From positions 55,874,753 through 55,938,752 of the forward strand of contig NC_090290.1 of assembly GCF_037392515.1 (NCBI RefSeq): a DNA stretch of 64,000 nt, given 5' to 3'. Numbering within the stretch: position 1 is the stretch's first letter; every line of letters begins with the position of its first letter. Positions 4,501 through 41,477 of the stretch are shown piece after piece. Made by a program: the position numbers and the translations under genes. Under the pieces are notes generated by a model. It saw nothing but the letters and a program-made list of their open reading frames with translations. It was not told the origin of the DNA and did no database searches. The DNA is from Haliotis asinina (taxonomy: Eukaryota > Mollusca > Gastropoda > Lepetellida > Haliotidae).

Positions 4501-6819
4501 CATCGACATTGTGTCCAGAAAGCGAATTGGTTTGGGCTGGGGAAAGAAGAGAAGGAGGAATTACAGATGAGAAGGGTGTTACAACAGTTATATATCGCAC
4601 ACTATGGGACACTTTTCTGAAAATTTAGAATTTCAAAAGCAAAAATGTCTCTGACAGCTGAGAGTTAGGACATACCATACAACTGTGACTACTATTGAAT
4701 AATCCATGATCTTCTAAGATCTGCAGGTAAAACCTTTGATTCTAATGTCTCCCATTTTGTCTCTTGGCAACATTGATGGCAAACTTTCCAGTTTGATTTC
4801 TTTGATGGGCATTCTTGAAGTTCAGTTGATGAAGAATGGTGACAATTTTATGGATATCCAACGTCTTTTATTCCAACTTCTCTTAGTCGTCATATTTTTC
4901 AAGTCAATATTTGGAACTGTACCCACTGACAGCATGGCCTGGTATTTATTCACCCCAATCTGAAACTAGATGTCCTTACCTGTGTATAATATTGCTCTTT
5001 CACAAAGGATCTGTCAAATCCCACATTGTGACCAATGATAAGACGCTTCTGCCATTTGCCACCAGGGGGAGCATTCGAGCCTCGCTTTGTCTCCAGCGGG
5101 ATTAAGTCAGACAGTGTTGGTTTGTCAGACCAGCGATACTTGTCCTCAACAACGTAATCACTGACCCATGAGTACCTGGACATGATCATAGAGTCAGAGT
5201 GAGTTTTACAGTTAGAATCACATCGGCAGTAAGTCAGCCGCATCATGACCAGGGTCAAAAGAAAACCAGCAAAGGAAATACTTAGAACATGTCTTGTGTA
5301 CAGGGCACACACTGTGTACCTATACTTTAGGCATCCATATCAGACGTACTAATCAAATGTGAACCTGTATGAACCAGTATGAACCAATATTTTAGAACAC
5401 GTTTGGTGTACTAGCTACTGCAATTGTATTAAAAGTTGACTTCTGCTATTAAGACAAGTACCATAACATAACATGTTACATTTGGGAATTACACTTACTC
5501 AGCAAAGTACCAATTCTTGTCCTTTAAGGGGTTCAGACCCATCTGGGATTCAAACCTCACACTCTCAGATCTAAACAATTATGTTTGCACAGAAATAGTA
5601 GTCTGACCACAGACAGTCTGAGTCTAGATCACATCCTTTGTGTATCCCTCTTACAAGTGTAAATATGCATGAAAGTCAAAGATTACACAATAACGTTGAG
5701 AAACCGGTCAAACATAACACATTCTAGGACTTTCAGGATACAGCTGAGGAGTGAGGCACCTATTTTCAAATCATTCTCATCACACCTGTTTAGAAGCAGC
5801 ATAGGGAATGGGCCCCTGAAGTTTATTCTGTAACAATGAACAGGATCAGAATCCAAGGATCTCCTGCATTTTCCAGCTGTTCACATTTGGGCTAGAACAA
5901 GGACTTGTGTCTATTATCATGTTCATGGTGACAATTTCAGTCCTTGAAAAAGATATGAGCATAAAAAATGAAGTTGATAAGTGAACTCTATCTTCCTAAA
6001 TGTCTCATTTCCATAAATGACACTTAAATGGGTACATCGACAGAATACCAGTAACTTTCCAGCCATATTGTTTAGTGTCATGTCACCATAGCATTAACTG
6101 TATCCCGAAACCTTACCTAAAAAATCTAAACTTAAACTTAACCCTAACCAAAAGTAAAACTTATTTGCCTACAAAGATGGTGGAAGGTATCCTGTATTCT
6201 GTAGTCCTACCATTAAAAGATATCCAATAAACTTTATTTTTTCTTCTAATTAACATACTACCAACCAGTATTTATCTGAAACAGCTGTCGCCATGGTAGG
6301 AAACTGTCCTTCAGTCATCAAGCATTCAATATCAAACACAATGGCCGTTTCTTCTGGGTATGGAACCGCTGTGGTTGATCCGTCTGGGAGGTACTTTGTC
6401 CAGCCCTTGCTGTAGACCCACTCATCAGGCAGTGGAGGAGTTTCTGAGCTGCATAGGTTCTCTGCCATGGACTTATACTCAGCTATTTGCTGTTCAGCTA
6501 TCTTGTAGAAATGTTCCTCGATGGAACTGCCTTGAAGTGGTGGTAGTTTCAAATCAACATCATCCAGAACTGTGGTGGCATGATTCCATAAACCATGTTT
6601 TTGGAGATGATTTTCCACTGATTTCAAATTTTTGTTTAATGTTTCAGCAATTTCTGTTTCTTTGAAAATTTGTTTATGTAAAGTTTCGGACAGCATTTGA
6701 ATTTGGAGTGGGTTTGTGCGTTGTGGCGTTGTATCTTGGAGTTCGTTCATTGAGCGATGAAACCATTGTCTGCGACACCAAGTGTTTAGGTGACATGTCC
6801 TCCGTGGGAAAGCTTGCAT
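1529..6819 (-). CDS. POLG: DNA polymerase gamma catalytic subunit (mitochondrial), 5' part of gene
   Basis: Replicates mitochondrial DNA. Six coding exons follow one another on minus with GT-AG junctions and matching phases: 6819-6266, 5175-4980, 4536-4378, 3510-3370, 2142-2063 and 1711-1529. The joined protein (about 271 residues) starts MQAFPRRTC with an Arg-rich, targeting-like N-terminus. It carries the family's NPLQIQMLS segment, exonuclease motif I (FDIEC...EGQFPT), the motif II region ([17 protein letters not shown]), RFLDTMSMH, then YCANDVLAT and [12 protein letters not shown]. Start choice: ATG at 6,819 lies six bases after a splice acceptor (TTTGCAG), implying a noncoding exon upstream. 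The last donor (GATAG/GTGAGA, 1,529) is phase 2, and no next exon is visible down to position 1, so the linker and polymerase domain lie off the window. No frame breaks are seen. Confidence 0.95.
2345..2885. repeat. Degenerate tandem repeat in a POLG intron
   Basis: Roughly 33-34-bp units built around ACCATTGGTTACTA, followed alternately by AGCAGCAATTCTACGACGG and TGGACCAATTCAACACTGG, so the working unit may be a dimer near 67 bp. The left part is regular and the right part (after about 2,640) is increasingly diverged. It lies between POLG exons 2063-2142 and 3370-3510. Confidence 0.85.
3820..4082 (-). mobile_element. 260-bp LINE-derived short element, copy 1
   Basis: Reads on plus from TGAGTGAGTTTAGTTTTACG to GGGACCTTCACGGGT, so with the ACTCACTC tail taken as 3' it is on minus. 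Six other copies occur in the window (9,088; 11,525; 23,070; 26,280; 53,642; 54,098). Strand is assigned from the shared tail of the I-group LINE at 46,556. Confidence 0.85.
4098..4248 (+). mobile_element. tRNA-like SINE copy
   Basis: GGGGTAACCTTGTGGATCAAG head, GGGTTTGATTCCCC box, ACAATGTGTGAAGACCATTT and CTGGTGTCCC, then a TGATATTGCTAAAAGC tail ending in CACTCCCTCACTCA. That tail resembles the LINE 3' tail. It abuts the 260-bp element at 3,820-4,082. Confidence 0.75.
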
Positions 6820-6839
6820 TGTTACCTGCAAACAAGAAC

Positions 6840-11159: not shown

Positions 11160-11167
11160 TATATAAG
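11160..11167 (+). promoter_or_regulatory. TATA box of the plus-strand secreted-peptide gene
   Basis: TATATAAG, followed about 30 bases later by CAGTCTCCAG, a plausible start. The short noncoding exon then ends at 11,212 with donor ACG/GTAAGT. This fits a leader joined to the acceptor just upstream of the ATG at 12,002. The other paralog has the same layout. Confidence 0.65.
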
Positions 11168-11244
11168 TGGCCCTCAGCTCCGACTCAGTCTCCAGTGTCG
11201 TCTACATCAACGGTAAGTTGCAACCATTTACATGTCAGTGCCAT

Positions 11245-11355
11245 GCAGTGAGTAGTCTAGTGGTTAACCAGTTCGATCGTTCCTCCGGAGGTTCGGTTTC
11301 GATTCCATCATGGGTACAAAGTGTCATGCTCATATGTGGACATTGCTGGAATATA
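11245..11355 (+). mobile_element. tRNA-like SINE copy, diverged
   Basis: GCAGTGAGTAGTCTAGTGGTTAACC head, GGTTTCGATTCCATCATGGG box, and ACATTGCTGGAATAT tail. It lies within the 5' UTR intron of the plus-strand secreted-peptide gene. Confidence 0.65.
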
Positions 11356-11524
11356 GATTCTTCCCAGAACTGATTGAAACTTCGCACGTACCATTGTTTT
11401 ATACTACATGTGATTTTTCAAATACATTCGATATACTCCATGTTTTCACCGTGAACTGTTTGAGAGGCATTCTAGAGGTTGCAAGTGATAGGAATGACAA
11501 GTCTTTATGAATGGATAACTTCTT

Positions 11525-11785
11525 TACTGGCGACCCGTGAAGGTCCCGGGGTAGAATAGGCCTTCAGCAACCCATGCTTGCCATAAAAGGCGACAATGCT
11601 TGTCGTATGAGGCGACTAACGGGATCGGGTGGTCAGGCTCGCTGACTTGGTTGACACCGGTTCCCAGTTGCACAGATCGATGCTTCTGCTATTGATCACT
11701 GGATTGTCTGGTGCACGCTCTATTTATGTATTCCGTCGCCATACAGCTGGAATACACCTAACCTCACTCATTCACTCTTTATTGG
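11525..11785 (+). mobile_element. 260-bp LINE-derived short element, copy 3
   Basis: Starts ACCCGTGAAGGTCCCGGGGT, contains GGCGACTAACGGGATCGGGT, and ends ACCTCACTCATTCACTC. The middle is worn. It sits in the 5' UTR intron of the plus-strand secreted-peptide gene. Confidence 0.85.
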
Positions 11786-12001
11786 GCAATAGTATCTTTT
11801 CGGAAGTGGATTTCGGGTTTGCTATTCAGCATATAAATACTTGTACCGTTTTCAAGCACCCTTACATACAATGTTAATGTCGTCTCATTATATTGATACG
11901 CTCCTTAAAGGAGTCTTTGAAATATACGGGGAGGAAGATTCATTTGTTGACCAGTCGAGTCAGACTGATATGACACTCTCTGTACATTCAGATCAGCAGC
12001 C

Positions 12002-15000
12002 ATGAAATTCGCCATCCTGATCCTCGTACTTCTTCCTCTGGTCTACTGTGACTTGATCGACCGTGAGTATAACACGTAATCTCATTGGATAATATTAACC
12101 AACACCCTCTCTCATTGGCTGGCTTCAAACATGCTTCCGTGTTATCTTATACCGTGCAGGGCTCGAAACATTTTAACATCTGCACTCGCCCTACTGGGAG
12201 CGTAAAAAGAAGTTTCCACTCGTCCTTCTAAAATTCTACTTGCCATATAAATCTGACCATGTTCAAGGTTGACTATATCTGCAAACGTTGCATTCACTTC
12301 TCGTTCGCACATACACCTCTTGCTGTATTATTCCTTTATCTGTAGAACCATCTGACAAAACACTGAAGAACCTACTTTCTCTCAACCCTTTTTCAACTTC
12401 TGTGTTTAAAACTCTTACAATATTTTCTGTAAATGTTTTGCATGCATGGTTATTAATGTAACTGCCACCAAGATTAATACACCTGCATCTGACAAGATCG
12501 TTCAAATTTGGAAAATGGCTCTCCTTCCTGTGCCACATCTTGTATGCAGTTTCATAAGCTAAAGTATTTCTTTCGTCAACTCTGCACATGGCCTGGGCAT
12601 ATTGTGCACTTTCGGGATTTTCCAAAATTCTATCATGTTCACAACATTGAATATGCTTTTTGCTTTTATGGTGAAATCTTAAAGTCTGTTTCCTGAAATT
12701 GTCTTTCAATCACACTACAAGACTCGATTCTGGATGAAATATCTTTGGATATTTGCCACACACAGTTAAAAAAAGCTCGCACCCATCATCATCAGCCAGC
12801 CATGCTTTTTGAACAGAGCGCTTTCGTTTTCCAGTGTCATATTTCTTTTGACTACGTTTTCTTTTTTTCCTTTAGTCTTGCAACCATACTCTCCTTTTTT
12901 CTGTCAACATCACCTCCACCAACAAGACATTTCCTAATATCCGACATCGTCGTCGACGATTAGTTATCGGTGACGGTGCAGCGTGAATAGCAACAAGCCG
13001 CTTACATCAACACTAGCCCTAGTTACTTCCCTTGGCCTTACAAGACGATGCGCAGTTAAGATTTGAAATATTTGAGAAAACTTGCGGATTACAAATCGCC
13101 GTAACTGATATTGTAAACCCAACAAAGTATGAGTTAGTGAACTTACCTCGTTGAAAACATCAATGTCAACTGGCAATTAAATGCGTTTACTCAATATCAC
13201 GATTGTTAAAACATTAGTTAAAAGCAAAGTTTCTACCTCGTCAGTTTAATCCAATTTTCAGTTTAGCACACGTGATAAAATATATCAAGAATTTCATCCA
13301 ACCTGGAAATTACGTATGTATAAAAGCAAAAACAAATCACCAAGAGGAAAAGTTGATGGTAAACGATCGGTAATCACAAGAGGGAATTCCTTACAGTAAA
13401 TCTTATTTTGATTGGATAGTAGCAACATTCATGTTTGTACTGATTTTTCTCATTGGTCAGTTTATTTACAGCAGCCAATCACGACATTCGAAACTTTTAC
13501 GGTACAAAAACACGGTGCACGATAGGTGTTACAAATATGGATACCAAACGGCCATCAAGACTTATACTCAATTTGCGGTTAGTTTTCGAGGAAAAAAATT
13601 GCCTACAGAGATTGGCGATGTCGAAACTTTAGTTTATTATTTTGAAAAATAGAACCCGTCAGAAAACGTACTCGTCCTTTAGGACGAACAAATTATGTTT
13701 TCCACTTGCCCGAAACAAATTTTACTCGTCAATACGAGCGGACGAGTGGAATTTTCGAGCCTTGTCGTGACTTGATCGACCGTGAGTACAACACGTCCTC
13801 TCATTGCATAATATCAACCCGCTCTCATTGGTTGTTATCTTATACCCTGACTTGATCCACCGCGAGTATAATATATCCCCTCATTGACTAAAATCAAACA
13901 ATATCCGCTCTCACTGGTTGGCTTCAAACATGCTTCCTCGTTAAACTATAGTTTGACTTCATCGATTGTGAATATCGTATGTCGCATCCTCTCATTGGAT
14001 GATATCAGTCAACACCCGCTCTCATTGGCTAGCATCATATATGCTTCCTCGTCGCTTCACACATGTCAGTTCATCGACCATGTTTACCATGTAACACATC
14101 CTCCTATAGGATGATATCAACCCGCTCTCATTGGCTGGCTTCAAATATACTTTATGAGTAGTTTTATGCTGTCACTTCATCGACCGTGAGTATCATATAA
14201 CATATACTATCATTGGCTGGCTTTAAATACGTCTCCTCGTCGTTTGATTGTCATGTAAGACATCTTCATCAAGCAACATCTGCTCTCAATGGATGGCACA
14301 ATCTGATACATTCTTCGCCTTTGTGGAGTGTCTCCAAACCCTTCTCCCAGCACCTGCTCATCTTACGTAACCTACAACCCCATTGGCCTCTGTCACTCTT
14401 ACTGGATACTGAAACGCATGCTCTCGGTGGCATGTGACGGCATTGTCCAGTCTGCTTATGTAACGTATGCTCTCAATGGCTCGCTAATGTTATGATGCGC
14501 ATCCTCTCATCGGTTAGTGTTTTGTTGACTATACTCTCACTGGTCAACATGAAACACTTCTCTTTGACCTCCGTAATGGGACTTCTGTTTGTTGCAGGGA
14601 ACAAATGATCTCATTTTCGATAAACCAATAAGCCCAACCACGTTTATGAAACTAGCTATAATTTTCGGGAAGATTTACACTGTCAAAGATTTGCACAATT
14701 TACACTATCACAAATGTCAAAAAAAGAGAAGACAAAATACAATATTTGTAGGTGTAGACGCCTTTGTCGAAATTCGATTTTGCTTAAGAAATACACTTTG
14801 ACGTTTTTCGGTATATTCCTTTTCTTTATAATTTAATCTCAAAGGTGTGATGATTCAACCGTGATGTAAGCCTCTTAGGCTTATTGTGTACAGTCATTGC
14901 TTTTGAGGAAAGAGTGTATTTTGTATATAATTATCCATAACATTTTGCCCCTTTGGAACAAATTAAGTGTTTCCAAACTGAAATATTTTGTGCAATATTT

Positions 15001-16193
15001 AAGCATGTTGTAATTAAATCTTCATGTCTAATGTGCGATTTGTGTTTATATTCAGAGTTCAAGCACTTGTTTGACTTGGGAGAGCTGAAGAGCGTTGTCC
15101 AGAAGATTGCTGACACCATCGGATCTGACGCCACCGAGGCGGCCTGTGAGAAAGAGTGCACCACCATCCTGCACAACAGTGCACTTCTCACCAGCGGCTG
15201 CGATCTCATCTGCAGATCGTGAGTGGATTCTTATCATTAGGGCAGTAGGGTAGCCTAGTGGTTAAAGCGTTTGTTCGTTTGTTCTCATACATGGATAAAA
15301 TGTATGAAGCCTGTCCACCGTGATATTGCAGAAATATTGCAAAAAGCGGCACAAGGCTATTGCCAAATCCTGTTTGTTTACATTCCCATTTCTCTTGTTG
15401 AATCCTCCGTGAAGGTTCCGGGTGGAATTGCCATATTATTGGGTGTTGCACTGGATGAGAATCTCTCCATGAGTCCCCAAACTGCTCTGCACTGTCTCAG
15501 AAAGGACTGACAAAGTCTTTGAATTCTTGTGGTATTCTGATCCTTTCTTCTCGCAATGCCTGCTACAGTTGATCAAACATCAGCGGCGCCCGTTGACGAC
15601 CACACGTCATCCCACAAATGACCGGTGGGGTTGTGGACGGGCGATTTGGAACGCCATGGTTGCACTGTAATGCTCTCATTCTGAATAGTGGCATGTTCTG
15701 CGTGAGGCCTGGCATTATCTTGCCGGAACAACTCTCTCTGGCGATCAATGACAGGAACCATGTGAATCTCTAAGATTTCGTCTGTGTGCTGAATTGCAGT
15801 TAAGTTGCTGTAAAGGCGCACAACGTAACATTTCAGCATGTAGGTTATATTCCCCCACATCATGACACTCTCACTACCAGATCAGTCTGATCGGGGGACA
15901 CAAGCATTTCCACGGCGATAGCCACTTCCGTCACGGTACTTTCGAACGTAAACGTGCATTAAAGGTTTCAAAGATGCGTTTTTGCAGTGTACATTCTTTC
16001 CATGTGCACAAACCAGCGATGGCGACACAATTACAACTTACCAGTAATTCTGAACAATAAAATGAACCATTTGAATTTTCACTTTTTGATATCACCTATG
16101 CGTTTCTTGTTTGGAAAGAATACATTTACACCTTTTGAATGTGTTTTTTTCTTCAGATTCCAGTCTCTTGTCCAGCGGTTCCATATCGTTTAG
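12002..16193 (+). CDS. Secreted four-cysteine peptide precursor, paralog A
   Basis: Three coding exons, 12002-12062, 15056-15218 and 16157-16193, join in phase with GT-AG borders to give 86 residues. Residues 1-16 form a hydrophobic signal peptide (MKFAILILVLLPLVYC). The mature part has cysteines at 51, 55, 69 and 73 (CX3C-X13-CX3C), the spacing of helical-hairpin peptides with two disulfide bonds, and ends RFHIV. The ATG follows a splice acceptor (ACATTCAG), so transcription likely starts near 11,190 behind the TATA box. AATAAA lies 28 bp after the stop (16,221). The paralog on minus at 22,950-24,285 has identical coding-exon lengths for exons 1 and 2. I do not recognise the family. An antimicrobial, toxin-like or signalling role is possible, but the sequence does not decide. 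The introns carry mobile elements. Confidence 0.85.
12157..13764 (-). mobile_element. hAT-like DNA transposon, decayed
   Basis: Terminal inverted repeats CAGGGCTCGAAA (12,157) and CAAGGCTCGAAAA (read inward from 13,764). A short CGTG flanks both sides, but no clean 8-bp target repeat is seen. The inside carries a transposase remnant on minus. It interrupts the tandem repeat in intron 1 of the plus-strand secreted-peptide gene. Confidence 0.65.
12263..12875 (-). pseudogene. hAT transposase fragment (ZNF862-like)
   Basis: Reading on minus, a basic KRKRSVQKAWL stretch and a DDDGCELFLTVCGK segment are followed by one in-frame TGA. Then comes an open stretch with FSVLSDGSTDKGIIQQE, which matches the conserved first-aspartate region of hAT transposases of the ZNF862/DUF4371 kind. 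The frame ends at 12,263, well short of a full transposase, so it cannot make an active enzyme. Confidence 0.7.
15241..15352 (+). mobile_element. tRNA-like SINE copy
   Basis: GGCAGTAGGGTAGCCTAGTG GTTAAAGCG head, then CATGGATAAAATGTATGAAG and GATATTGCAGAAATATTGC. It lies in intron 2 of the plus-strand secreted-peptide gene, 23 bp after the exon 2 donor. Confidence 0.75.
15490..15960 (-). pseudogene. Decayed Tc1-like transposase fragment
   Basis: Minus-strand reading gives VMMWGNITYM, then DEILEIHMVPVID, RELFRQDNARPHAEHAT and WRSKSPVHNPTGHLWDDV. These are the second-aspartate (QDNAR) and glutamate (NPxxHLWD) regions of Tc1 transposases, with the catalytic Glu region altered (NPTGHLW in place of NPIEHLW). 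There are frame breaks and no terminal repeats were found. It is unrelated in age to the intact Tc1 at 37,223. Confidence 0.75.
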
Positions 16194-16220
16194 ATGGAGT
16201 GATGTAAAAGACTGAGAAGA

Positions 16221-16226
16221 AATAAA
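16221..16226 (+). promoter_or_regulatory. Polyadenylation signal of paralog A
   Basis: AATAAA 28 bases after the TAG stop at 16,191-16,193. It supports the placement of the short third coding exon. Confidence 0.6.
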
Positions 16227-16229
16227 CGT

Positions 16230-18320
16230 ATTTTCGACATCAGAACGTTGCCTTCTTTCACGCAAGAAAAGACCGCCGTAAAAAAATGAAAGACGCACTC
16301 ATTATTCTGTATCTGTCTGTGAAACGAACCGCTTTGCAAACAAGGTACTTCTAAATGAAATTTATAAAACATACTACACACGAGTAGTCCATTACTGAAC
16401 ATCGAGAATTTTCTGAATTTCATCTTGTTACGGTTAAGAATTTGGTGTGCCAAAAGGTGTAAGAAACCCCTGTGAACCAGGAAAACAGAACAAAGGCAAG
16501 TTTAACATATTCAGATACTGTATTAAGGCAATGAGAGAGCAAGTTATACAAAGTCACAAGTCAATTTCACAATACAGATTTCAAATACAATACAAATGAG
16601 ACAAAATCTAAGGCAATGGGTCACAAAATATATAGTATCGCAAACTCACCAGTGCGAGTTTTAGTGCGAGAGAGAAACAGTCGTGCAGAATGTAATACAG
16701 CGAGTGGTCTGACAGCAGTTTCAGGCGTTGACAGCGATGGATGATGATATATTCCAGTGAATGAATGTGAAGGTGTCCCTCGCAACACGGCAACTACTAG
16801 CCTTTATACATACTTGCAGTCGTTTCCCGAAAGTACGAGCACTTACTGCCTTCGTCATCACTGTAGAATGCCATCGAAACAATGTCTCCCGGCTTCTAGG
16901 ACGGTCTATATGAACATTGTTTTGTTGAAAATACTTCACTGACTATGATCTATCACTACACAATTCGTCAGTAGACGTTAAGTAATTACAGGGTTTTACT
17001 ATGTTTATTGTGCACATACTGTAACATCCATTCATATCTGGCATTGTAAACAAAGCGTGTGACTTTGCGCATAGGTTCCGGTCATGTGCATGTAACCTTT
17101 GACCCCGACCAGTCTATATCCGGGTAATGAAAATACCTTGTCATACCTAGTAAAATACTTAATTCCTACTTCTAAACCTAATATTTCTTAAAACAACACC
17201 AGGAAGTGATTTACATGTTTTACGTGCGTCATTATGAAGGCATTGGTCCGCTGAACGGTAGTAAGTTTTCCAGAACAAGTTCATTACATTCCCGCGAAAT
17301 TCCCTTTGTCAAATTCATAGCTCATATAAGACTTTTCGCTCTCAAACCATTCCGATACTATAAATACTTATGTTCAGGGAATCAATGAGATCGCTCGAGA
17401 TGCTACGAGTGCGGGATAAGGTTCACCCCAGAGGTGTTTTGGTTTGATTTTCGAGTTTGACGACGTATTAAAGTTAATAAAATGGGTGTTATGTTGTGGA
17501 AATCAGGCAGGATGTGTGGGGAAATGTATAATTGAGAGGTAGGTTTGCATAGTTACGAATGTCACCGAATTGTTAGAATGCATTAAGCCTGAAATCGGAA
17601 CGAGTCGATCTCGGCACGACAATCCAATATGGCAGCTGCTGCTCCTTTACTCTATTAATATACTGCAGTATATGACGTGCATGTAGATCTATGGTTTATG
17701 TTTAACCTGCAGAGCGATATCGGGTTCCTGTGAGTTAGTACCAACAATCCATTTGAAACATTATACAATTATAGCATTCCTAGTGTTTATACAAATAAAA
17801 TATTCATGTAAATATTATCTAGAGGGCTTCAAGGGAAATGTGTCTGGAGTTTCGTTTGAGTACATAACTGAAACAGCGAAAAATGATTTTAATGATGTGC
17901 AAGATGGCGTAGATGACAGAGACATCTGACGTCATTCTGTGACGTCATATTTTGTGGTGCTAGCTAAGAAAACTATTTATGACTATTAGAGACACATAAC
18001 CCAAGCGTCTGTTGGCTTTTAACCAGATCGATAAATTACCGCTTTTATGTTTTTTTTGAACGTGTTAAAATATGTATGTCAATTCCAGAGGGCTAACACG
18101 TGCAAAATACTTTCTTCCTGTTTTTATTACTATTATATTTTTTGCGTGAAAAACGCAGGTTTCTAGGTTAACATGAACACTGATGGATTATCTTTTATAG
18201 ATGCAATCATAGATATCCGCCAACCATATGACGCTAAACAATAGACGCGCAAACAAAAGAACCATGTGATTATTTACATTACCTTTCCTCGTTCCCTATA
18301 TTTAAAATGTTTCAAGATTT
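16230..18320. other. Intergenic stretch, nothing recognised
   Basis: AT-rich sequence with frequent stops in all frames. No gene, RNA or repeat family from this window was recognised on either strand. Short open frames here lack plausible protein composition. Confidence 0.4.
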
Positions 18321-18329
18321 TCCAACCAT

Positions 18330-19140
18330 ATCTTTGACAGCTGCTTCAGCAATATTTGATAGTAAGATATCCCCAATATTAATGTATGGTAGTGAAATCT
18401 GGGGACATTCATATCGTCCTCACATTGAGAAAATCCAATGTTTCTTTTTCAAGCGTTTTCTATGAGTTAACAAAAATGTTTCTTCCAATGCTGTACTTTG
18501 TGAAATTGCTGGAACTCAATTATGCGTGGAATATTACGGCAGATGTAGCAAATATTGGTGCAGAATATTACGTATGGACGAAAATCGACTCGCAAATCAT
18601 GTTATGAAATGTTAAAGCTGCAAGATGATAGTGGCAGCTGCTAGTGGGTTACGCATGTGCGGCTACTTTTATTCCGAACTTGATTTTCTTATGTTTGGAT
18701 TACACAGGAATTTGGGAATATGGAAAGGTTTATGAGTGAATTTAGACAAAGATATTGAGATACTGAAATTCAAAATTGGCATTCTGGGATAACATCATCA
18801 TCTTTTCTAAAACACTATGGAGCAATCAAACCCGCCTTGGAACCTGCAAAATACATACTGGAACTTTGTAATAATAAGAATCTTATACGCATTTTATGCA
18901 AATTGCTCTGTTTAAACCACAAGTTAAATGTTCAACAACAACGTTATGATAATAATATAAATCCCAAAACCACTGATATGTGACAAATGTGATTTTAATG
19001 TTATTCAGGATGAACTTCATTTTTTACCTGTGTGTCTATTCTATTCTGTACACAGAAAACTGTATCTCGTTATTACCATGCATTCCCATCAAGATTAAAA
19101 TTTAAACAACTTTGAACAACGACAAATGCACATTTGTTGA
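18330..19140 (+). pseudogene. LINE 3' ORF2 remnant (molluscan non-LTR element)
   Basis: With frameshifts and stops, the plus strand reads ISPILMYGSEIWGHSYRPHI, then IEKIQCFFFKRFL, VNKNVSSNAVLCEIAG, CSKYWCRILRMDENRLANH, and further on CDKCDFN..DELHFLPVC. This is the region after the reverse transcriptase in a molluscan LINE family, including a C-terminal Cys/His cluster. Many breaks make it dead. It may belong to the same family as the YADD fragment at 54,975-55,300. Confidence 0.65.
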
Positions 19141-19196
19141 AGCCTATTGCAATATGTCTCAAGCGTAACGCCTGTAGGAAATGAACTAATTACATT

Positions 19197-19940
19197 CAGG
19201 CCCCCCTAAGTAATTGAAGGAATTACAGCAAATTTGAAGGAATTGCATCTCAAATGTAAACAAACGCAGCCCACTCGCGAAACAATTGCAGCGATATCGG
19301 TAATTTAGCGGTAATAACAGAAACACATCGGCCCTATCGGAAGCAATGTCGGTAATACTGGAAACACGATCGGCCATCTTCGGAGATTTTTCGGTCGCGA
19401 GCGGAAACTCACGCAGCAAAACATGGCGTCGTTGGAAGAAGCACCCGTCTCGGTGAGATTTGTTTTTAGTTCCTACTATTACATTTTCATACTTATCCAT
19501 CTTTGACCACCCGTGTTGAATGCGTTTAGGTATGAGGTGTTGTCGGGGCAATAGCTTATGTTTTTAGGAAAGGATAGTCACTCTAGGAGAGCGTCACAAG
19601 TCATGCCCCTGTAGTTTGTTTACATCTGAACATCGAAGTCGTGCCGATGAAAATGTAATAGTAGGAACTAAAAACAAATCTCACCGAGACGGGTGCTTCT
19701 TCCAACGACGCCATGTTTTGCTGCGTGAGTTTCCGCTCGCGACCGAAAAATCTCCGATGATGGCCGAGCGTGTTTCCAGTATTACCGACATTGCTTCCGA
19801 TAGGGCCGATGTGTTTCTGTTATTACCGCTAAACTACCGATATCGCTGCAATTGTTTCGCGAGTGGGCTGCGTTTGTTTACATTTGAGATGCAATTCCTT
19901 CAAATTTGCTGTAATTCCTTCAATTACTTAGGGGGGCCTG
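19197..19940. mobile_element. 744-bp fold-back element
   Basis: Two arms of about 300 bp (19,197-19,494 and 19,645-19,940) are near-perfect inverted copies around a 150-bp spacer. Outer ends are CAGGCCCCCCTAAGTAATTG and its complement. The 5-bp ACATT flanks both sides as a target duplication (19,192-19,196 and 19,941-19,945). Each arm has a mirrored open frame of about 120 codons with no protein-like features, so I treat it as noncoding. Confidence 0.85.
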
Positions 19941-19949
19941 ACATTATCT

Positions 19950-21560
19950 TTTTCAGTCCATCCGCGTAACATTGTTTTCTACATGTTGGTACTCTTGGCC
20001 ATGTGGCCTCAAACAGTGAATACACCTCTTCTTCTTGTATTAAACTAACAGCATCACCGCACGCAAGACAGAAAATGTGTTTTGATCGTAGAAAGGTGAG
20101 TGATCACGTTCAAGGTTATCCCATACATATGACAGTTTGAACTTGAGTCTTGTTTACAACGGTAACTCACTGTTGTATGATACTGCAGCTTAACATGATT
20201 ACTCCACACCTGCTGACACCTAGCCGTCCAGTCGTTGTCCCATCCCCTTTGTGCAGATTACCAGGCAGGGTAAAAACAAGTTTGAACATCTTTTGATGTG
20301 AGTCCTCCAGCTGCTGAAAGTCACCTACCACTGCACTGGCTTTCTGGGCAGAACCTCTGTCCATTATACGAGTTAGTGTGGATTTACGCCACTTTTAGCA
20401 ACACTTCATCAATATCACCGGGAAAAGGCAGCACACATTGAACTCATGTGAGAGTCAAATCTGGGTCTTCGCTCCATAAGAATAAGGAGTGAATGTAAGG
20501 TGTGTGCATAAATGAAGCTTTCAATGACCATATAGTGGTTATGGCATGAGACTAGTACATCCACTTTCATGGGCCAAACATTGAAAACAACTGCAAAGTG
20601 ACTAAGAGACAGAGTTTGGAAGAGATTACCTCTCCCACCTGGCGGTACCATCGCAAACACAAACATCTCACTCTTTGTGTATTGAAGCTTCGGAAATTAG
20701 TACAAAACAGGGATATGTCTTCAAGTGTTTTGCCACTCAAGCCGAAAGTTGTCAGTGCTGCGTGTTTGTCGATGTTGTTTTCTGCTCACTGAATACAGCG
20801 GTCTTACCTGCTTACTCTTACTGTTATAGTACTAAAACTACGTCACTTCTACACATCCACCTCCTAAAATCTCTGTTATAAATGGAATGCCATGCATGTG
20901 ATAACCAAACTAGGAAGCAATACTTTGTTCATCATAGAAACAGGTAACCAACCACAGAATATCTACTCTAAAGATCTGATGATCATCAATGCACCAATAG
21001 ATTAATGGCGATGGAAGTATACTTTTAGGACACTGTTCCACCATTCTCTTTTTTAACAGATGAAAAACGGCAATGTTGTTTAAGATATTTTTCCGCTTGA
21101 AGGATAGAAATAGTAAATATGTTATGTTTTATTAATGCCCCTTGAAAACGTTTCAGACTATGCTTTATATGGATGTCATCAATATGTCAAGTCCACGCTT
21201 TCCAAAATGGAAGCTGGACTAAAAGATATTTGCAACAGGGGTAAAAAATTAACTTTACGTCTTATTCTTGAAGGCAATATCATAACTATAACTCTCGATA
21301 ATCCGATACCCCTAATATTGTCCTATAAAAGCAGGAAATAATTAGATTGGTGCGGAAAAAAAGAAAACGAGGACCACCACATATACAATGCCAGATGCTT
21401 TTAGATTCTAGATACGAGCTCACAGTTTTAATCAATATAATATCCGATTTGGATATGTAGTCTTGTCGCCATATATATACTTGTACATACAACAAACCCT
21501 TGCAATAAAGGCTTAATTGTAGCAAAGGCAACAGTACGTAATTTGTGTAATTCATCTGCA
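19950..21560. other. Intergenic stretch, possible helicase scrap
   Basis: Mostly nothing recognised. On minus at about 20,560-20,660 a short reading (FAMVPPGGRGNLFQT) faintly resembles a Walker A region of a RecQ-type helicase with the GK lost. It is too short to call. Confidence 0.3.
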
Positions 21561-21561
21561 T

Positions 21562-21680
21562 GAAGGTGAGTGCTTTATGTGCTTGAAGGTGAGTGCTTTA
21601 TGTGCTTGAAGGTGAGTGCTTTATGTGCTTGAAGGTGAGTGCTCTATGTACTTGAGGATGAGTGCTTTATGTGTGTATAC
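21562..21680. repeat. 23-bp tandem repeat, five copies
   Basis: GAAGGTGAGTGCTTTATGTG plus CTT, repeated head to tail. The last two units are diverged. Non-coding. Confidence 0.9.
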
Positions 21681-21699
21681 ATATACAATTGTAAAATTC

Positions 21700-22690
21700 G
21701 AACAATTTTGTTAGTATGTGGTTTGGGTTCGTTTAACGCATCCCGTAGCAATATTATAGCTGTATGATGGCGATCTGTAAGTAAACGCTTGTGGACCAGA
21801 CAATGCCTTGATTGGCATGATGCGATATGATGACACAGCATGTGTTTATGATGCAGTGTAACATAATGTAACGTAACAGGTGTTCCTGACAAGCGTATCC
21901 CACCTGTGAAACATATACAGAGACTAGTCATTTGCTCACCTGGAAAATGCAGGTACACGTCAAAATAGGGATTTGCATTGGACAATTTTGTCAATAACAC
22001 ATCAAATTTTGAAATGCTATCCTCGTGTGTATCTGAAACGTTGTGAAAGCCTTACAGAGGCCTTCAATGTTGTAACCGTGATGGAACGTCATTTTAGAAG
22101 TCTTATTGGGGTGTCGTTACTGTGATTAAACATCCCTCAATTGCTGCTACCGTGTCCTCAGTTCTTTGACGTTCTTCAGATGTAAGCAAACGCTTCCATC
22201 GAGAAAGCGACGTTTCAGTTGAAACTGTTTCCTTGATACCAAAATTCCAAATGCTACCAAATCAAATCAAATGTGTATCAGGAAAAATACTTGTATGCGA
22301 TGAAATTACTGATGTATTTAAGCCCCATGTATTTGAGATTTTTCTTGTAGGCACCAACAACCCAAGGAACATAACCTGGCATTCAAACCCAAGTTCCTGA
22401 CATATCTAAGGGAGGTAACAGCAGGTTGGACGAGTGACCACCTACATAATGTCTCTTCCTATATTTCAGAGAGGAGATATATTTATGGCTTGCAATCAGT
22501 TATCATGAGTGTGTGCCAGTCAAACAATGCAAACTTGTCACAAGTTTATTTCATTCAAAGGAACAAGGAACCAAGCATTCGTAAGGTTTTAACGAAGATG
22601 GAACATGTGGACAAGCTCCTGGAATCTGAAAGACAAACGATTCTGGTGTGATTCTGTTGCACTTCATCAATGTGTTAAGGATGTTGTTTT
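21700..22690. other. Intergenic stretch, no feature recognised
   Basis: No homologous coding reading, repeat family or RNA gene was seen. A TTTATT at 22,545-22,550 would read AATAAA on minus, about 400 bp after the stop of the minus-strand secreted-peptide gene. It is a possible but distant polyadenylation signal. Confidence 0.35.
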
Positions 22691-22696
22691 CAAAAA

Positions 22697-22837
22697 GGCA
22701 GTGAGTTAGCCCAGTGGTTAAAGCTGTCGCTCGTCACGCCAAAGTTCGATTCCCTACATGATCACGTTATAAAGCCCATTTCTGTTGTCCCCCGCCATTT
22801 TTTTGCTGGAATATTACAAACAGCGACGTAAAATCAA
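22697..22837 (+). mobile_element. tRNA-like SINE copy
   Basis: GGCAGTGAGTTAGCCCAGTG GTTAAAGC head, GTTCGATTCCCTACATG box, CCATTTCTGTTGTCCCCCGC, and a TTGCTGGAATATTAC..GCGACGTAAAATC tail that matches the LINE-type tail. It lies about 110 bp beyond the stop of the minus-strand secreted-peptide gene, perhaps in its 3' UTR. Confidence 0.8.
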
Positions 22838-22949
22838 AATGGAATTGGTTTGTGAGGATAATCTACACAAAGTATTCTTTCAAATGTATGTTATGAAAAT
22901 ACTTAAACCACAACCAGGAGAAATTCATTTTTTTACGCAAATCGCAGGT

Positions 22950-24285
22950 TTATCTTCTCTTCTTAGAGTTCAATACTGTTATTGCATTTTTAAATCTGCC
23001 AGATGTTAGAATTAAAGAATCATCTATGACTTTTTTTGCTGGAATCTGGCCAACCGCCCTATCATTAAAGCAATGAGTGAGTGATTGAGAGAGTGAGTTC
23101 AGTTTTACGCCACACTCAGCAATATTCCAGCTATATGGCGGCGGTCTGTAAATAATCGAGTCTGGACCAGACAATCCAGTGATCAACAACATGAGCATCG
23201 ATCTGAGCAATTGGGAACCGATGACGTATCAACCAAGTCAGCGAACCTGACCACCCGATCCCATTAGTCGCCCCTTACGACAATCACGGTCGACTCTTGT
23301 GGCAAGCATGGGTTGCTGAAGATCTATTCTACCCCGGATCTTCACGGATCGAAAGCAATAAGAACATGTAATTGCTGACTTACGATTTACAGATGAGTGG
23401 ACAGGAATGAACTAATATCAGATGTCCCGTCAGTGCCACGTGACAAGCACCTTCGCACGCATGCTCAGTGGCGTCAGTTCCAACAGCATGGACAATCTTC
23501 TGGACAACACTCTTCAGCTCATTTGCACTGAACAGGTGCTTGAACGCTGGAACGATATCGACAATCTACTAATTCTCTGAAATATATCTGAATACCCAAG
23601 GAAACGTTACAAGGTTGCTTTTCATTGCATTTTATCTAAGAGACATTTTTCAAATATCATGTTGAGTATCTCGTCGACTGGGTCTTGGAGACACATGGCC
23701 TTTTGTTGTGTGTTCTAAGCACTGCATTTATTCCCCTTATATGTACCAGAGGCCTGTGATTTGTGGTTTCAGATAGTGAGTTGATAATAGTTTTCGGTTT
23801 GCTAGTTTCACCAAGGATGAAACCGTCTAAAGCTTTTGCCACGGGTGTTTGTCCCCCATTATGAAACTGACACTGTGGTGTTACTAAACTGCTGCTCAAA
23901 GTTCTTTTTTGACATTCGTCATTTTAACTCATCTAAATATGAAACATATACTTGCTTCCGTGCATCATGCCAGTCATTGCTGAGGGCATAGACTAGGTGA
24001 ATATATGAAAATGATAGTCGCAGGGTCAGGCATTCCAAAATGAACAAAGATTAAAAACTACTTTCCAAAAGGCTGTATGACAAAAGGAATGATTTCAGCT
24101 TCCAAATACAGAGTATTTCCCTACTGTCGAGCAATATACCAACACTTCCAGTCTTTGGTGTTTACATTTCACAACTTTTGAGGGACAATCGAGCGTGGTC
24201 GTTTTATGCCGTAGTTTCACTTACTGTCCAAGATGTTACCGCACACCAGCGGGATGAGGATAAGCACGAGAAGAGCGGCCTTCAT
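22950..24285 (-). CDS. Secreted four-cysteine peptide precursor, paralog B
   Basis: Three coding exons on minus, 24285-24225, 23546-23384 and 22995-22950, join in phase with GT-AG borders into 89 residues. A signal peptide (MKAALLVLILIPLVCG) is followed by a mature part with cysteines at 51, 55, 69 and 73 (CX3C-X13-CX3C), exactly as in paralog A. They also share FKHLF, ELKSVVQKI, DATE and PLIC/DLIC. Exons 1 and 2 have the same lengths as in paralog A (61 and 163 nt) and the same phases. The C-terminus is more basic, ending KKRR. An acceptor 13 bases before the ATG and a TATA/leader pair at 25,621-25,668 place the promoter. Orientation is opposite to paralog A, with about 6.8 kb between the facing 3' ends. 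Function not recognised. Confidence 0.85.
23070..23350 (-). mobile_element. 260-bp LINE-derived short element, copy 4
   Basis: Well preserved: AGTGAGTTCAGTTTTACGCC at the left, GTCTGGACCAGACAATCCAG and CCGATCCCATTAGTCGCC in the middle, and GGATCTTCACGGATC at the right. It lies in the intron between exons 2 and 3 of paralog B. Confidence 0.9.
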
Positions 24286-24297
24286 TCTGTAGGAATC

Positions 24298-25640
24298 TGA
24301 AAAAAAAAAAGAACCACGGAGGATAAGGTGAGCAGTTTTTTCATCGGGTTTTCGAGCAGTGTTAAAGCTCTTATCAGTTATCATGAGCTGTCTTATAGCT
24401 GATATGGGTTTGACGGTCTCAGTGTAACCTTTTTTGAACTTGATGAATTAGCATACCTGATTAACTGACACAGGGCAGTTATCTCTATTTAAAAACAATG
24501 AAATTGTACCTATATTTATTCTATAATCTCCATCATGCCTCATACATGACACGTGTATAAACTACGTATACCCTCGTGGTGTCAGCCGTTTAATCACCCT
24601 CGCTACGGCATTATATAAACTCGCAGAGTTTATTCAAATAACTGCTTTGCAAGTATGATTAAACTTTATCTTACCTCACACGTGATTGTCGCTTTCTGAT
24701 TGGCTAAGCTCTATTCTATTATTTTCAATGTACCCCGCTTACAGGCGATGTATTATTTTCAACGTACACCGCTGGGACTTCCGAATTCCTCTGGTGCTTC
24801 ATGGTAGTATTTTCTTAGCTCAAATAACATTGAATCACGCATCAAGCACGGAAATTACCGATGTTTTGCGACTGAAAATCGATGGACGGGAGATAACTCT
24901 AAATCTGTTTACCTTGTGTCCTCTGCAAAATGTCGATTCGTTTCGCATTCAACAGAAGTGTTTCAAACAGTTCAAAATTATAATTCAGGTGTTGGGTGAG
25001 ATATATACGTTGTTCACTGGTCCCACGGGGTCCATGGGCTCATGTATCCTCGAGGTTTGTTTATGATCCTCTTGCCCTGCGGGCTCGAGGAACATAAACA
25101 AACCTCAAGGGTACATGAGCCCATGGTCCCCTCGTGACCAGTGGACAACTTATAATGCACTTAGACGTGGCATTAAACGTACCCAGTAAAGTACAAATTC
25201 TTCTACTACAACCAGTACTGAGAAAGTGAAACCCTGACCACTGACCCTGACCTGACCACTCTCAAAAGTTGTTGTGTGGCACAATATCAATGAAACTATG
25301 TCCCTTTGGATTTACGTCTTTGTTTCAATGTTTACTGTTTATACTGTTGTTTGTTGTCAGTTTAAACGTTTGTGGAGCCCGCGTTTTCAATAGATCCAGA
25401 ACAATCCATTTCACATTTCTGTGTCAATAAAAGATGTTTGAAAACTATCCTGAAACTACATTGTTACCCGGAATAATACCCGTAAGGAACTATAGCGTGT
25501 ACCTTGACCTGAAATGATACAGTAGTTTATGAATGAATTAACAACCTGTTTGAGCCTTCCAGAATGTATGTTTGAAACATTAAATACAGAGTACCAATAT
25601 GTCAGAAATACAATACTTACCTTGATGTGAAGACTGTAAG
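24298..25640 (-). promoter_or_regulatory. Promoter and 5' UTR exon/intron of paralog B
   Basis: On minus, TATAAAG at 25,668-25,662 is followed about 30 bases later by a short leader ending at 25,621 with donor ATCAAG/GTAAGT. The matching acceptor is a run of T then CAG at 24,299, joined to ATTCCTACAGA and the ATG at 24,285. The intron holds the palindrome at 25,010-25,150. The architecture mirrors paralog A. Confidence 0.6.
25010..25150. mobile_element. Hairpin repeat (small MITE-like palindrome)
   Basis: Arms 25,010-25,064 and 25,093-25,150 are near inverted copies: GTTCACTGGTCCCACGGGGT and CATGGGCTCATGTATCCTCG face their complements around a GCCCTGCGGGC centre. It lies in the 5' UTR intron of paralog B. 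No target duplication was identified. Confidence 0.75.
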
Positions 25641-25689
25641 AAACCATCTGGGAAGGCTAAGCTTTATACTGTTTTCTTATCTCAAATCT

Positions 25690-33900: not shown

Positions 33901-35830
33901 TCATGTACGTGTCACACCAAAATGAGCAAGATCATGAGCACGCTTGATAACAGCATACTGTTTGTCTGTTGATAAGACACAGATAGGTAATTCCTGCGAA
34001 TCTTCCACTGGAAATCTTGACAAAATGTCACTTGGAATGTTATCTTTCCCAGGTATATATTCTACATCAAACTGATAATCTGAAAGTTCTAAATACCATC
34101 TTGCGCATTTCTCAGATTTTGATGACATGATAAATGTCAAAGGCCTGTGGTCTGTTTTAATTACAAACTTTCTACCATAAATATATTCTCTAAACTTCCT
34201 TACTGCCCAGATAAGTGCCAAAGCTTCCCTGTGCACAGTGGAATAATTCCGTTCAGTTTTTGATAACTTTTTTGAAGCATAGCAAACAGGATGATCATTC
34301 TGCAGAAGTACCCCTGCTAAACCCGATTTACTGGCGTCTGTCTGAACAACAAATGCAGGAGCATTAGGACTAAAGTCAGGATGTGCTAACACTGGCGCCT
34401 TAGTGAGAACAGCCTTAACGCTGTCAAACGCACTCTGTTCACTTTCATGCCAAACATACGCACGAGATTCTACTATGCGACTGAGTGGCAACACCAGATC
34501 GGAAATGGTGGGAATAAATCTAACAAAGTATGTAGCCAGTCCAAGAAACGACCTCTCTTGCTCCCATGTACCAGGAACTGGACAATTCCGAACCGCCTCA
34601 ATACCCTTCTTACCAGGTCCAACTCCACTAGCAGAAATTGAGAAACTGAGATATGTCAAGCCAACAGACTTCACTCGCTCAAACACCTCACGTAACACTG
34701 ACAAATGTTCATCGGCCGTGGACGAATGGACAGACACATCGTCCAGATACACCAAAACATGATCTTTCCACAACCCACTTTGGACAAGATGCATAGTACG
34801 TTGGAATGCTAAAGGAGCAGTTTTTAAGCCAAAACACATACGCGAGAATTGCCAGACACCAGACGAAGTTCCAAATGCAGTCAAGGGCCTCGACGTTTCA
34901 TCCAAAACAGTCTGGTTATAAGCAGAGTTAATATCAAGAAAACTGAAATATTTTGAAAGTTTAAATCTCATCAGTGCCTCATTAGGAGTCATTAAAGGTC
35001 CAAACAAAATCTTAAGCTCTTATTAGCCTTCTTAACCACCACAATTGGTGAAATGATAGTTGATGTACTAGGTTCCACTATACCTTGATCAACCATTGAT
35101 TTAGTTTGCTCATCAACGATCTTATCTATATGGGGACCAAACCGCTTGCGACGCTGTGTAACCTTATTCACATCTGCATTAGGTTTAAGTGTAAGCTTGA
35201 ATGTATGGCCATTCACCTTGCTTAAGCCTGTATACAATATATCTTTGTATTCTCTGAGCAGTGCTATTGACTATTCCCAATGTAAATCATCCATGGGTCC
35301 TATGTTAAACTTAGGATCGCTTAACTCGTTCTGTAGTTGAGGGAGTATTTGAACACACAGAATCCTTACACTCTCGAGCCTCACCAAGAGTCTGACATCT
35401 GTACAGCTTCTTACTCACTTGTTCTGGATTCATTACTTTCGCACACAGATTCCACGAGCTAACAACAGACCTGGCTACAAACAACTCTGTCTTGGTTTCA
35501 AAATTCTCATTACGTTCAATCATCATCTGTTCCGACTAACAGACACCCGCAACACTTCTGACACCTTGGTGGTATAACAACATATTGAGTGAAATGTACA
35601 CTGGAAACCTGTCACCAGACTCGATTAAGTTACCCAGTTTGACTTCATTATGTTTAGGTACCAGAGTAACACTGTCAAATTTCGATAGGAAATCGCAACC
35701 AAGCAGAACATTCTCGGTACTGTTTTCTAACACATGGAAAGTACACTCGTAGATACTACCGTCAATACGGACACACGTATCGATAGGCTTCCTAATGACG
35801 TCACGGGAATCCCCGTGTCGCCATTAGCGG
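33901..35830 (-). pseudogene. Gypsy protease C-term, reverse transcriptase and RNase H
   Basis: On minus: a protease second half (ENVLLGCDFLSKFDSV), a linker of about 100 residues, reverse transcriptase N-part (KVNGHTFKL..IVEPSTSTIISPIVVVKK), then from about 35,007 FSFLDINSAYNQ, FSRMCFGLKTAPLAFQ and the catalytic VLVYLDDVSVHS. RNase H follows with FVVQTDASKSGLAGVLLQ, HREALALIWAV and IKTDHRPLTF. A frameshift near 35,000 and stops near 35,310 and 35,530 separate the parts. The reading frame of the protease enters from an inserted block near 35,830. Confidence 0.9.
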
Positions 35831-37222: not shown

Positions 37223-38749
37223 CACTGGCCCAAAAAAGAAACGCATAGGTGAAAATCCAATGTTATGAGAGATGATTTATTAACTTAAATTGCACAAAAA
37301 GTAATGGAACTTGAGCAATGATAATTCACACGGGTATTAACAAATGTGTGTCAAGACATATACAATCATTCACAGTGGTATTAAGCGTCTCTATTTTCCA
37401 TGGCATAGTGAGAAAGTCAGTATCTGGTGTGACCACCACGGGCATCAATCACTGCTCTGCATCGCCTGGGCATTGACTGTATAAGACGTCGTATCCGCCT
37501 TTGTGGGATTCTTCTCCACTCATCTCGCAACGCATTCACCAACTGTAGACGTGTCTGTGGCTGCGGCTGTCGACGTCGTAACCGTTTACCCAATTGGTCC
37601 CATAAATGTTCAATTGGGTTCAAATCCGGCGATTTTGAGGGCCATGGAAGAACTGTAATGTTGTTGTTGGCAAGGAAATCCGTGGTATTGCGTGCTGTGT
37701 GCCATCTTGCATTGTCGTGCTGGAAAATTTCCCTTCTAGCGTCAATTGTAGGAACAACATGACGGTTCAGAATTTCATCCCGGTAGCGTACAGCATTGAG
37801 ATTCCCTTGCACATGCACCAACTGTGTCCTGCCGTTCATAGATATGCCTCCCCACATCATTACACCTCCACCACCGTGTCTGTTGACCTCACGAACGCAC
37901 TGTCGAGCATATCTCTCATTTCGACGTCTGTAAACACGCATCCTTCCATCATGTCTGTACAGCAGAAAACGTGACTCATCGCTGAACCAGATCCTCCTCC
38001 AATTCAAGAGGTTCCATGCCCGAACGTTCCTGCACCACTGAAGACGTGCACGACGGTGATGGGGATGCAGAACAGGTCCTGCATGAGGTCGCATAGGTCG
38101 AATTCCATGCTCTCTTAGGCGATTCCTGATGGTTTGTGGAGAGACTCTACGCAGCCCAGGAACGTGATCAGCGGTATACGTAGCAGTGACGGCCCGATTA
38201 CGCAGATGAAGCACCCGGATGTAGCGGTCTTGTGCTGGAGTTGTCACCCTTGGTCTCCCACTCCTTGGACGGTCTCTGGTCGAGTTGTGTTGCGTGTATC
38301 GTTGCCAGAGACGGGAAATCGTGTTCTGCCTCACATTCAGACGTCTGGCAACTGATGACTGACTTTCCCCAGCTTCCAGACGTCCAATGGCTCTATTTCT
38401 GTTTTCTTCATTTAACCTTGGTATTTTTCGCGTCGCATAGAAAGAAATTCGAAGAATGAATCGCAACAGGACCTGTCCCCTTTTATAGCCATCATAATCA
38501 AGATTGAGATCCTGCATTTGCACGTGCATAATGCTTTCAGATTTTCCCACGTGCAGATTATACAAAGCGTTTTCAAGGTGCTGTGGTGTGGCGAATAATC
38601 ACCAGAGGTTGTGTTTGTTTGTCTGTTTTGGTTGTATTGACTATAAAAACACTTAATATTTACATTAATTGTCATTCCATTCCATATTTTCCGAAAAAAT
38701 CTACTTTAAAAATGAGATTTCAGCTATGCGTTTCTTTTTTGGGTCAGTG
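37223..38749 (-). mobile_element. Tc1/mariner transposon, apparently intact
   Basis: Terminal inverted repeats of about 25 bp start CACTGGCCCAAAAAAGAAAC (left) and CACTGACCCAAAAAAGAAAC (right, inward), with TA at each side (37,221-37,222 and 38,750-38,751). The length is 1,527 bp. It carries one open transposase gene. It sits inside an older ORF within the gypsy protease, so it is among the youngest elements here. Confidence 0.95.
37417..38529 (-). CDS. Tc1-type transposase (DD34E)
   Basis: 370 codons open from the ATG at 38,529, in frame with the family's usual start region (RLNEENRNRAIGRLEAGESQ). Two helix-turn-helix parts follow, the second with a GRPR box (SGRPRVTT). Catalytic residues: Asp in IWFSDESRF, Asp in FQHDNARWHTA, Glu in SPDLNPIEHLWD, with 34 residues between the last two. 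No stop or frameshift was seen. It cuts and pastes the element at TA sites. The family start is usually close to the PRLNEEN motif; here it reads KIPRLNEEN with no Met, so the ATG upstream is used or the start is mutated. Confidence 0.93.
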   Translation of the reverse strand: MHVQMQDLNLDYDGYKRGQVLLRFILRISFYATRKIPRLNEENRNRAIGRLEAGESQSSVARRLNVRQNTISRLWQRYTQHNSTRDRPRSGRPRVTTPAQDRYIRVLHLRNRAVTATYTADHVPGLRRVSPQTIRNRLREHGIRPMRPHAGPVLHPHHRRARLQWCRNVRAWNLLNWRRIWFSDESRFLLYRHDGRMRVYRRRNERYARQCVREVNRHGGGGVMMWGGISMNGRTQLVHVQGNLNAVRYRDEILNRHVVPTIDARREIFQHDNARWHTARNTTDFLANNNITVLPWPSKSPDLNPIEHLWDQLGKRLRRRQPQPQTRLQLVNALRDEWRRIPQRRIRRLIQSMPRRCRAVIDARGGHTRY

Positions 38750-40189: not shown

Positions 40190-41477
40190 ATAGTTCATTC
40201 TCAGGCAAGGGACATATCATACAATGTTATCATGTATATGGACAAAAATTGTGCAACCAAAGCAGATTCTCTTTTACAAAGTCGCCTAGCTACTGGACTC
40301 TCAACGGCAACTTTAAAGCGCATTAAGGCAGAAGGTGGTAGGAGTGCTAGTGGACATTTATCAGTCCCACCAAGTTGCGCAAACCCAAAACTTGCAGTTA
40401 CAAACTTGATGATTTCGACCGGTGTGCAGTCCGTCAATTTGTACGAAGTTTATATGGCGTAAAAAAAAAGAACTACCCACTCTGGATACGATGTATGATA
40501 TGGCAAAGTGCCAGTTGAACTACAAGGGTTCTAAGGAAAGTTTTCGAAAAAATCTCAAAGACATGGGGTTTAGGTGGCAAAAGACGCAGTCAAACCGTAA
40601 ACTTTTAATGGAACGTAAAGACATTGTTTCCAAGTGTTTGCAATACTTGCGTGCAATAAAGAAAGACAGAGAAGAAAATCGAACACTCATCTTTATCGAT
40701 GAAACATGGTTACATGTACACCACATTGTCCCAAAGTGTTGGGAACTGGAGGGTGAAGTCGTAATAAATGGGGTTCAACCTCCGTCTGGCACCGGACCTC
40801 GGCTTATTGTGGTTCATGCAGGGGGTGAAAACGGTTTTGTTCCAAAGGCTTTGCTTGTTTTTGATTCCAAACTCAAATCAGCAGACTATCATGACGAGAT
40901 GAACTTTGATAATTTTTCCAAATGGCTCCAGGAAACGTTGATCCCAAACATTCCACTGCACTCTGTCATCGTTATGGATAATGCACCATATCATAGCAAG
41001 CTAGTGGACAAATGTCCGCCAACCGCCAACACAAAAGATGACATAAAAGCGTGGCTACAAAGGCACAATATCTCATTTGATGAGAAAACGCTTAAAGCCG
41101 AACTATTGTTTCTTGCAAAATCCAACAAATCGGGTCCTGTCTACAGAGTAGACACGATGTTGAAGCAACATGGTCATGATGTACTACGTCTACCTCCATA
41201 CCACGCAGAACTAAACCCGATTGAGTTAATTTGGGCAAATGTGAAAAATTATGTCGCTTCACAAAACTTGCAGTTCACAAAAAGTTCCTGAAGAGTTGCC
41301 ATAAATGAAAGGATGTCTGCAATCGGTGCAAAAGAATGGTCGGAATGTTGTAAACATGTTAAAACAATTGAAGATGGTTACTGGCAACGCGTAATCGCAG
41401 TAGAAAGGGAAATTGACAGACTAGTGATTGACTTAGTACTTGCAAGTGATTCAGACACCGAGACTGAATCAGAGTGA
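40190..41477 (+). pseudogene. Sailor-like transposase pseudogene (IS630-Tc1-mariner, about DD82E)
   Basis: The N-terminal helix-turn-helix region (SLLQSRLATGLSTATLKRI) is in one frame. A one-base loss before DDFDRCAVRQFVRSLYG and an indel in a run of nine A at about 40,460 shift the frame. The catalytic core is then open: FIDETWLHVHH (first Asp), SVIVMDNAPYHSK (second Asp, 40,977) and LPPYHAELNPIELIWANVK (Glu, 41,223), with 81 residues between the last two by my count. A single TGA at 41,289 is followed in frame by about 60 more residues ending SDTETESE (41,477). No terminal repeats were found. The long Asp-Glu spacing fits the group described as DD82E/Sailor rather than Tc1 or mariner. Confidence 0.8.

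Follow-up and report, generated by a model that had tools for sequence, protein, structure and literature searches.

The window analyzed here, a 64,000-nucleotide (nt) stretch of Haliotis asinina DNA (C11:55874753-55938752 in the 1.14-Gb genome), contains two facing genes, designated gene A and gene B, which are almost certainly intact paralogs of vdg3, a family of small secreted digestive-gland proteins of mollusks, and members of a vdg3 array. The family has already been described, and the pair therefore adds two members to it rather than a new kind of gene. An earlier sequence-only reading of this DNA had correctly spotted both genes, save for one exon of gene B, as secreted four-cysteine peptides of a family that it did not recognize; that family is vdg3, named in H. 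asinina (Q5D218) and in Mytilus edulis (Q2XPU9).

A protein search with gene A yielded nine matches at E <= 1 among 10 candidates, all of them Haliotis proteins, including the H. asinina protein annotated as "Developmentally-regulated vdg3" (Q5D218, i.e., P0009; 71-72% identity over 99% of the query; E, 1.8e-34). The best match of gene A in other abalones was H. rubra P0004 (88%; 76/86 residues), and because no database representative exceeded 89% identity, gene A may be absent from the public protein set. The search with gene B, which still carried the KKRR tail of the first gene model, returned a single match, H. cracherodii P0013; the family profile also found this protein (E, 8.8e-37), which is itself part of the profile. 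Similarity thus places gene A in vdg3 directly and gene B through its ortholog P0013 and through 42 of 86 residues (about 49%) shared with Q5D218. The profile search gave 31 matches at E <= 1 among 3,271 candidates (of which P0034, with the highest E value at 0.47, is questionable) and added proteins of Lottia, Patella, Pomacea, Mytilus (e.g., M. edulis Q2XPU9, i.e., P0019, named Vdg3), and Sinanodonta to those of Haliotis. The pattern CX3C-X12-14-CX3C was found in 29 of the 31 alignment rows (exceptions, P0010 and P0026), and P0016 and P0034 lay outside the alignment. In the phylogenetic tree, in which 9 of the 19 inner branches were left open, gene B and H. cracherodii P0013 formed a fully supported pair (100/97), whereas gene A was nearest to H. 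rubra P0004 but fell in no strongly supported group.

Genes A and B resemble Q5D218 and Q2XPU9 in a signal-like start, in CX3C-X13-CX3C, and in the GSDA.E.ACE-type and SFQSLV.RF motifs. Both encode 86 residues (gene B with a corrected exon 4), as does Q5D218, and Mytilus Q2XPU9 has 95. Their coding exons of 61, 163, and 37 nt follow the plan of the Q5D218 gene. The features of the two genes are as follows.

11160-11166, plus strand: TATA box of gene A
11190-11212, plus strand: putative noncoding exon 1 of gene A (start estimated at about 30 nt past the TATA box; donor at 11213)
11992-12062, plus strand: exon 2 of gene A (ATG at 12002; 61 nt coding, 12002-12062; signal-like peptide)
15056-15218, plus strand: exon 3 of gene A (163 nt; holds all four core cysteines)
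16157-16193, plus strand: coding part of exon 4 of gene A (37 nt including the stop; ...FQSLVQRFHIV)
16221-16226, plus strand: AATAAA of gene A
25662-25668, minus strand: TATA box of gene B
25621-25640, minus strand: putative noncoding exon 1 of gene B (start estimated; donor at 25620)
24225-24296, minus strand: exon 2 of gene B (ATG at 24285; 61 nt coding, 24285-24225)
23384-23546, minus strand: exon 3 of gene B (163 nt; holds all four core cysteines)
22589-22625, minus strand: coding part of the family-type exon 4 of gene B (37 nt including the stop; ...FQELVHMFHLR; supersedes 22995-22950)
22545-22550, minus strand: AATAAA of gene B, just behind the family-type exon 4

Most of the architecture proposed from the sequence held up. 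TATA boxes are present at 11160 (plus strand) and 25668 (minus strand), each followed by a short stretch closing on a GTAAG donor, as expected for a noncoding leader exon; the 61- and 163-nt coding exons and their phases match exactly; all coding exons retain open frames and AG/GT borders; and the four cysteines occupy positions 51, 55, 69, and 73 in both proteins. The signal peptides are predicted by inspection, from the hydrophobic N termini of both proteins. As for the proposed large inserted introns, the intron between exons 2 and 3 spans about 3.0 kb in gene A, compared with 0.28 to 1.75 kb (0.68 kb in gene B) in the six other array members that had been paired with an exon 2 of their own rather than a neighbor's, but introns of about 3.3 and 4.0 kb also occur in two genes of a distant group at 11.37-11.38 Mb.

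The exception is the last exon of gene B, which had been placed at 22995-22950 and gave an 89-residue protein ending in KKRR. That segment is an AG-preceded open frame without likeness to the family and is very probably wrong. We searched the window on either strand for a family C terminus (that of H. cracherodii P0013 or that of gene A) preceded by an AG, with a cutoff score of 22. Two sites reached the cutoff, namely, 22625 (score of 57, against the P0013 C terminus) and the exon of gene A itself (score of 31); two reversed-sequence controls, pooled, gave one match, at the threshold score of 22. The site at 22625-22589 has a pyrimidine-rich acceptor and 37 nt, as in gene A, with AATAAA downstream at 22550; it is very probably the true last exon of gene B. 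Its C terminus reads SFQELVHMFHLR, compared with SFQQLVHMFHLR in H. cracherodii P0013, and the corrected protein is identical to P0013 at 78 of 86 residues (91%). Since this family-type exon replaces the KKRR exon, gene B is taken as 86 residues long, and the divergence of the C termini (RFHIV versus KKRR) is dropped as probably a gene-model error: the ends of genes A and B appear to be the same in kind, as in the H. cracherodii ortholog. The suggestion of diversification through new C termini, which had rested on the mistaken exon, falls with it.

The two genes belong to a large family in this genome. Exon 3 matched the genome at least 24 times at E <= 0.001 (a lower bound for so large a family), and the fetched stretches, to which the following counts refer, contained 25 copies above 40 bits. 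Nine copies with four cysteines lie around the window, together with one decayed copy (C11:55957300, minus strand) whose exon 3 lacks at least two core cysteines. Distant groups on C11 hold 11 copies at 11.37-11.55 Mb and 2 at 50.81 Mb, which brings the four-cysteine copies on C11 to 22 in three groups; that number refers to exon 3 only, as automatic exon pairing failed or took a neighbor's exon for several copies in the distant groups and in the array. Because exon 3 of each gene is one of these 22 homologous copies, the likeness between genes A and B reflects common descent rather than chance. The gene of the published vdg3 cDNA (Q5D218) is a member of the same array (C11:55953355-55951565; 85/86 residues), about 13 kb past the right end of the window, and a neighboring gene corresponds to H. 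asinina P0014 (86/86 residues). The 61/163/37-nt plan was checked in genes A and B and three neighbors, each of which reads as a whole 86-residue protein; copies in the distant groups have a longer exon 2 (64 to 76 nt). Two copies on C46 encode peptides identical to those of the two at C11:50.81 Mb, and this pair looks like a duplicate of the latter. At C11:11549974-11550152 (minus strand), a 23-residue segment from the start of exon 3 is present in three copies with a period of 89 bases, and only one of these continues through the whole exon. H. rubra, H. rufescens, and H. cracherodii each have several vdg3 members, apparently on one contig, which suggests that other abalones carry similar arrays.

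Exon 3 evolves under purifying selection, with omega values of 0.13 to 0.18 that are averages across paralogs and are not specific to the branch of gene A or gene B. The codon model gave omega values of 0.15 for 21 distinct sequences (an omega of 1 was worse by 91 log units), 0.15 for the nine array copies (worse by 30), 0.18 for eight of these nine (worse by 23), and 0.13 for 12 sequences of two distant groups (worse by 58). Five full coding sequences gave 0.14 (worse by 39), and in a series of fixed values, 0.15 was the best value tried in each of three sets. NG86 estimates were a dN of 0.21 and a dS of 0.65 between gene A and the Q5D218 gene and a dN of 0.46 and a dS of 1.50 between genes A and B. 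These values, together with predicted models of two relatives that are all helical (helices at 48-58 and 63-74), agree with the view of the sequence-only reading that both genes encode genuine peptides under selection, with four cysteines and a signal-like N terminus.

The label of helical hairpin, also proposed from the sequence, is consistent with the spacing of the cysteines and with the helices predicted, but Pfam, PDB-sequence, and one-model fold searches revealed no kinship to a known hairpin family. The Pfam scan of the two exon-3 peptides gave a single match, below its cutoff, and when PDB sequences were searched with gene A, the lone match (E, 1.4) was unrelated. The fold search returned the saposin-like NK-lysin (1nkl) as its top structural match, which was weak. 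Saposin-like proteins have six conserved cysteines forming three disulfides; by prediction, vdg3 resembles them as a small helical bundle, but its core cysteines number four and are spaced as in a hairpin, and genes A and B do not show the six-cysteine pattern of that class. Plant alpha-hairpinins, which are antimicrobial, share C1X3C2XnC3X3C4 and, by prediction, a helix-loop-helix with vdg3, and CX3C-X12-14-CX3C falls within the 4C inclusion rule CX3CX4-20CX3C given for them (PMC11591084). Both abalone genes have this motif behind a signal peptide assigned by inspection. Unlike alpha-hairpinins, however, vdg3 has extra predicted helices on both flanks and a mature protein of net negative charge, and the Pfam and PDB-sequence searches detected no relation in sequence.

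Published expression data describe an abundant transcript. In Mytilisepta virgata, vdg3 is reported as the top digestive-gland gene, with >4% of transcription (PMC5549309); in Mytilus, it is listed among the most highly expressed genes, with several variants (PMC4203926); and among the tissues of one study, it was confined to the digestive gland (PMC2810337). Its expression is described as rising strongly under okadaic acid (PMC4655091), in a report that describes vdg3 as known from bivalves alone, contrary to the abalone entries. In postlarvae, at least 29-fold-higher expression was reported for vdg3, which was called Mollusca specific and speculated to regulate the formation of the juvenile digestive system (PMC3517415). 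Two Rapana transcripts named vdg3 were reported to behave oppositely at metamorphosis (PMC4938671), which disfavors one simple role.

Our best guess, held tentatively, is that vdg3 is a bulk secreted ligand-binding protein. After cleavage of the signal peptide, a helical protein of about 70 residues would be secreted into the lumen of the gut or gland. Two disulfides, for which C51-C73 and C55-C69 are the simplest pairing, would staple two helices into a hairpin; a preceding amphipathic helix and a short following one would pack on this hairpin and expose a hydrophobic surface, which we infer would take lipid or another food-derived ligand. The copies would have been amplified for dose, in keeping with the very abundant transcript.

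An antimicrobial or protease-inhibiting hairpin that guards the gut lumen in the manner of plant alpha-hairpinins is an unlikely alternative. The 4C rule speaks for it, as do vdg3-annotated transcripts that reportedly shift in challenged oysters, but those changes run both up and down. Moreover, the net charge of residues 17-86, with histidines uncounted, is -4 for gene A and -1 for gene B, which is unusual for a membrane-killing peptide, and the Pfam and PDB searches described above offered no better than an unrelated match and one below its cutoff. A secreted developmental signal that regulates gut formation at metamorphosis, the role proposed by earlier authors, is quite improbable: induction at settlement is reported in abalone and, for one of the two transcripts, in Rapana, but transcript levels reported for the adult mussel gland exceed that of actin or top those of all other genes, and many near-copies exist in H. 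asinina, both of which suit a bulk secreted product better than a signal. It is very unlikely that gene B founded a separate, conserved histidine-rich vdg3 branch in which the stapled hairpin turned into a gut protein that binds metal or heme, with the ancestral ligand retained on the branch of gene A. Residues 17-86 contain eight histidines in gene B, a difference from Q5D218, and three in gene A, and all eight recur in the H. cracherodii ortholog, which is no proof alone at 91% overall identity. That the genes are relics whose frames survived by chance amid transposons can be dismissed almost entirely, for although one array member has decayed and genes A and B were read from DNA alone, every coding exon of both is intact, each has a close counterpart in another abalone (88% and 91%, respectively), and the paralog-averaged omega is far below 1.

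Elsewhere in the window, a domain scan of 10 of the 11 frames of at least 150 residues identified an open frame at 6250-6831 (minus strand) that carries the exonuclease domain of DNA mitochondrial polymerase (PF18136 in Pfam; E, 1.4e-36) and is thus one exon of a gene for a gamma-type polymerase or of a copy of such a gene. Between genes A and B, 19196-19941 comprises two 295-nt arms that are 99% complementary and 156 nt apart, probably a recent inverted-repeat mobile element. Transposon-type frames with reverse transcriptase/RNase H, DDE transposases, and endonuclease lie at 33901-35007, 37417-38565, 40422-41291, 47103-47645 (RNase H, below its cutoff), and 48612-50685. A satellite with a 23-bp unit (about 342 copies) occupies 56050-64000 and runs to the end of the window.

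The transcripts of vdg3 are reported to be among the most abundant in molluscan digestive glands. The two members described here are a useful addition to annotation, and with an improved gene model, the abalone copies mapped, and a four-cysteine hairpin-type pattern recognized as conserved across gastropods and bivalves, vdg3 becomes easy to express, fold, and assay.
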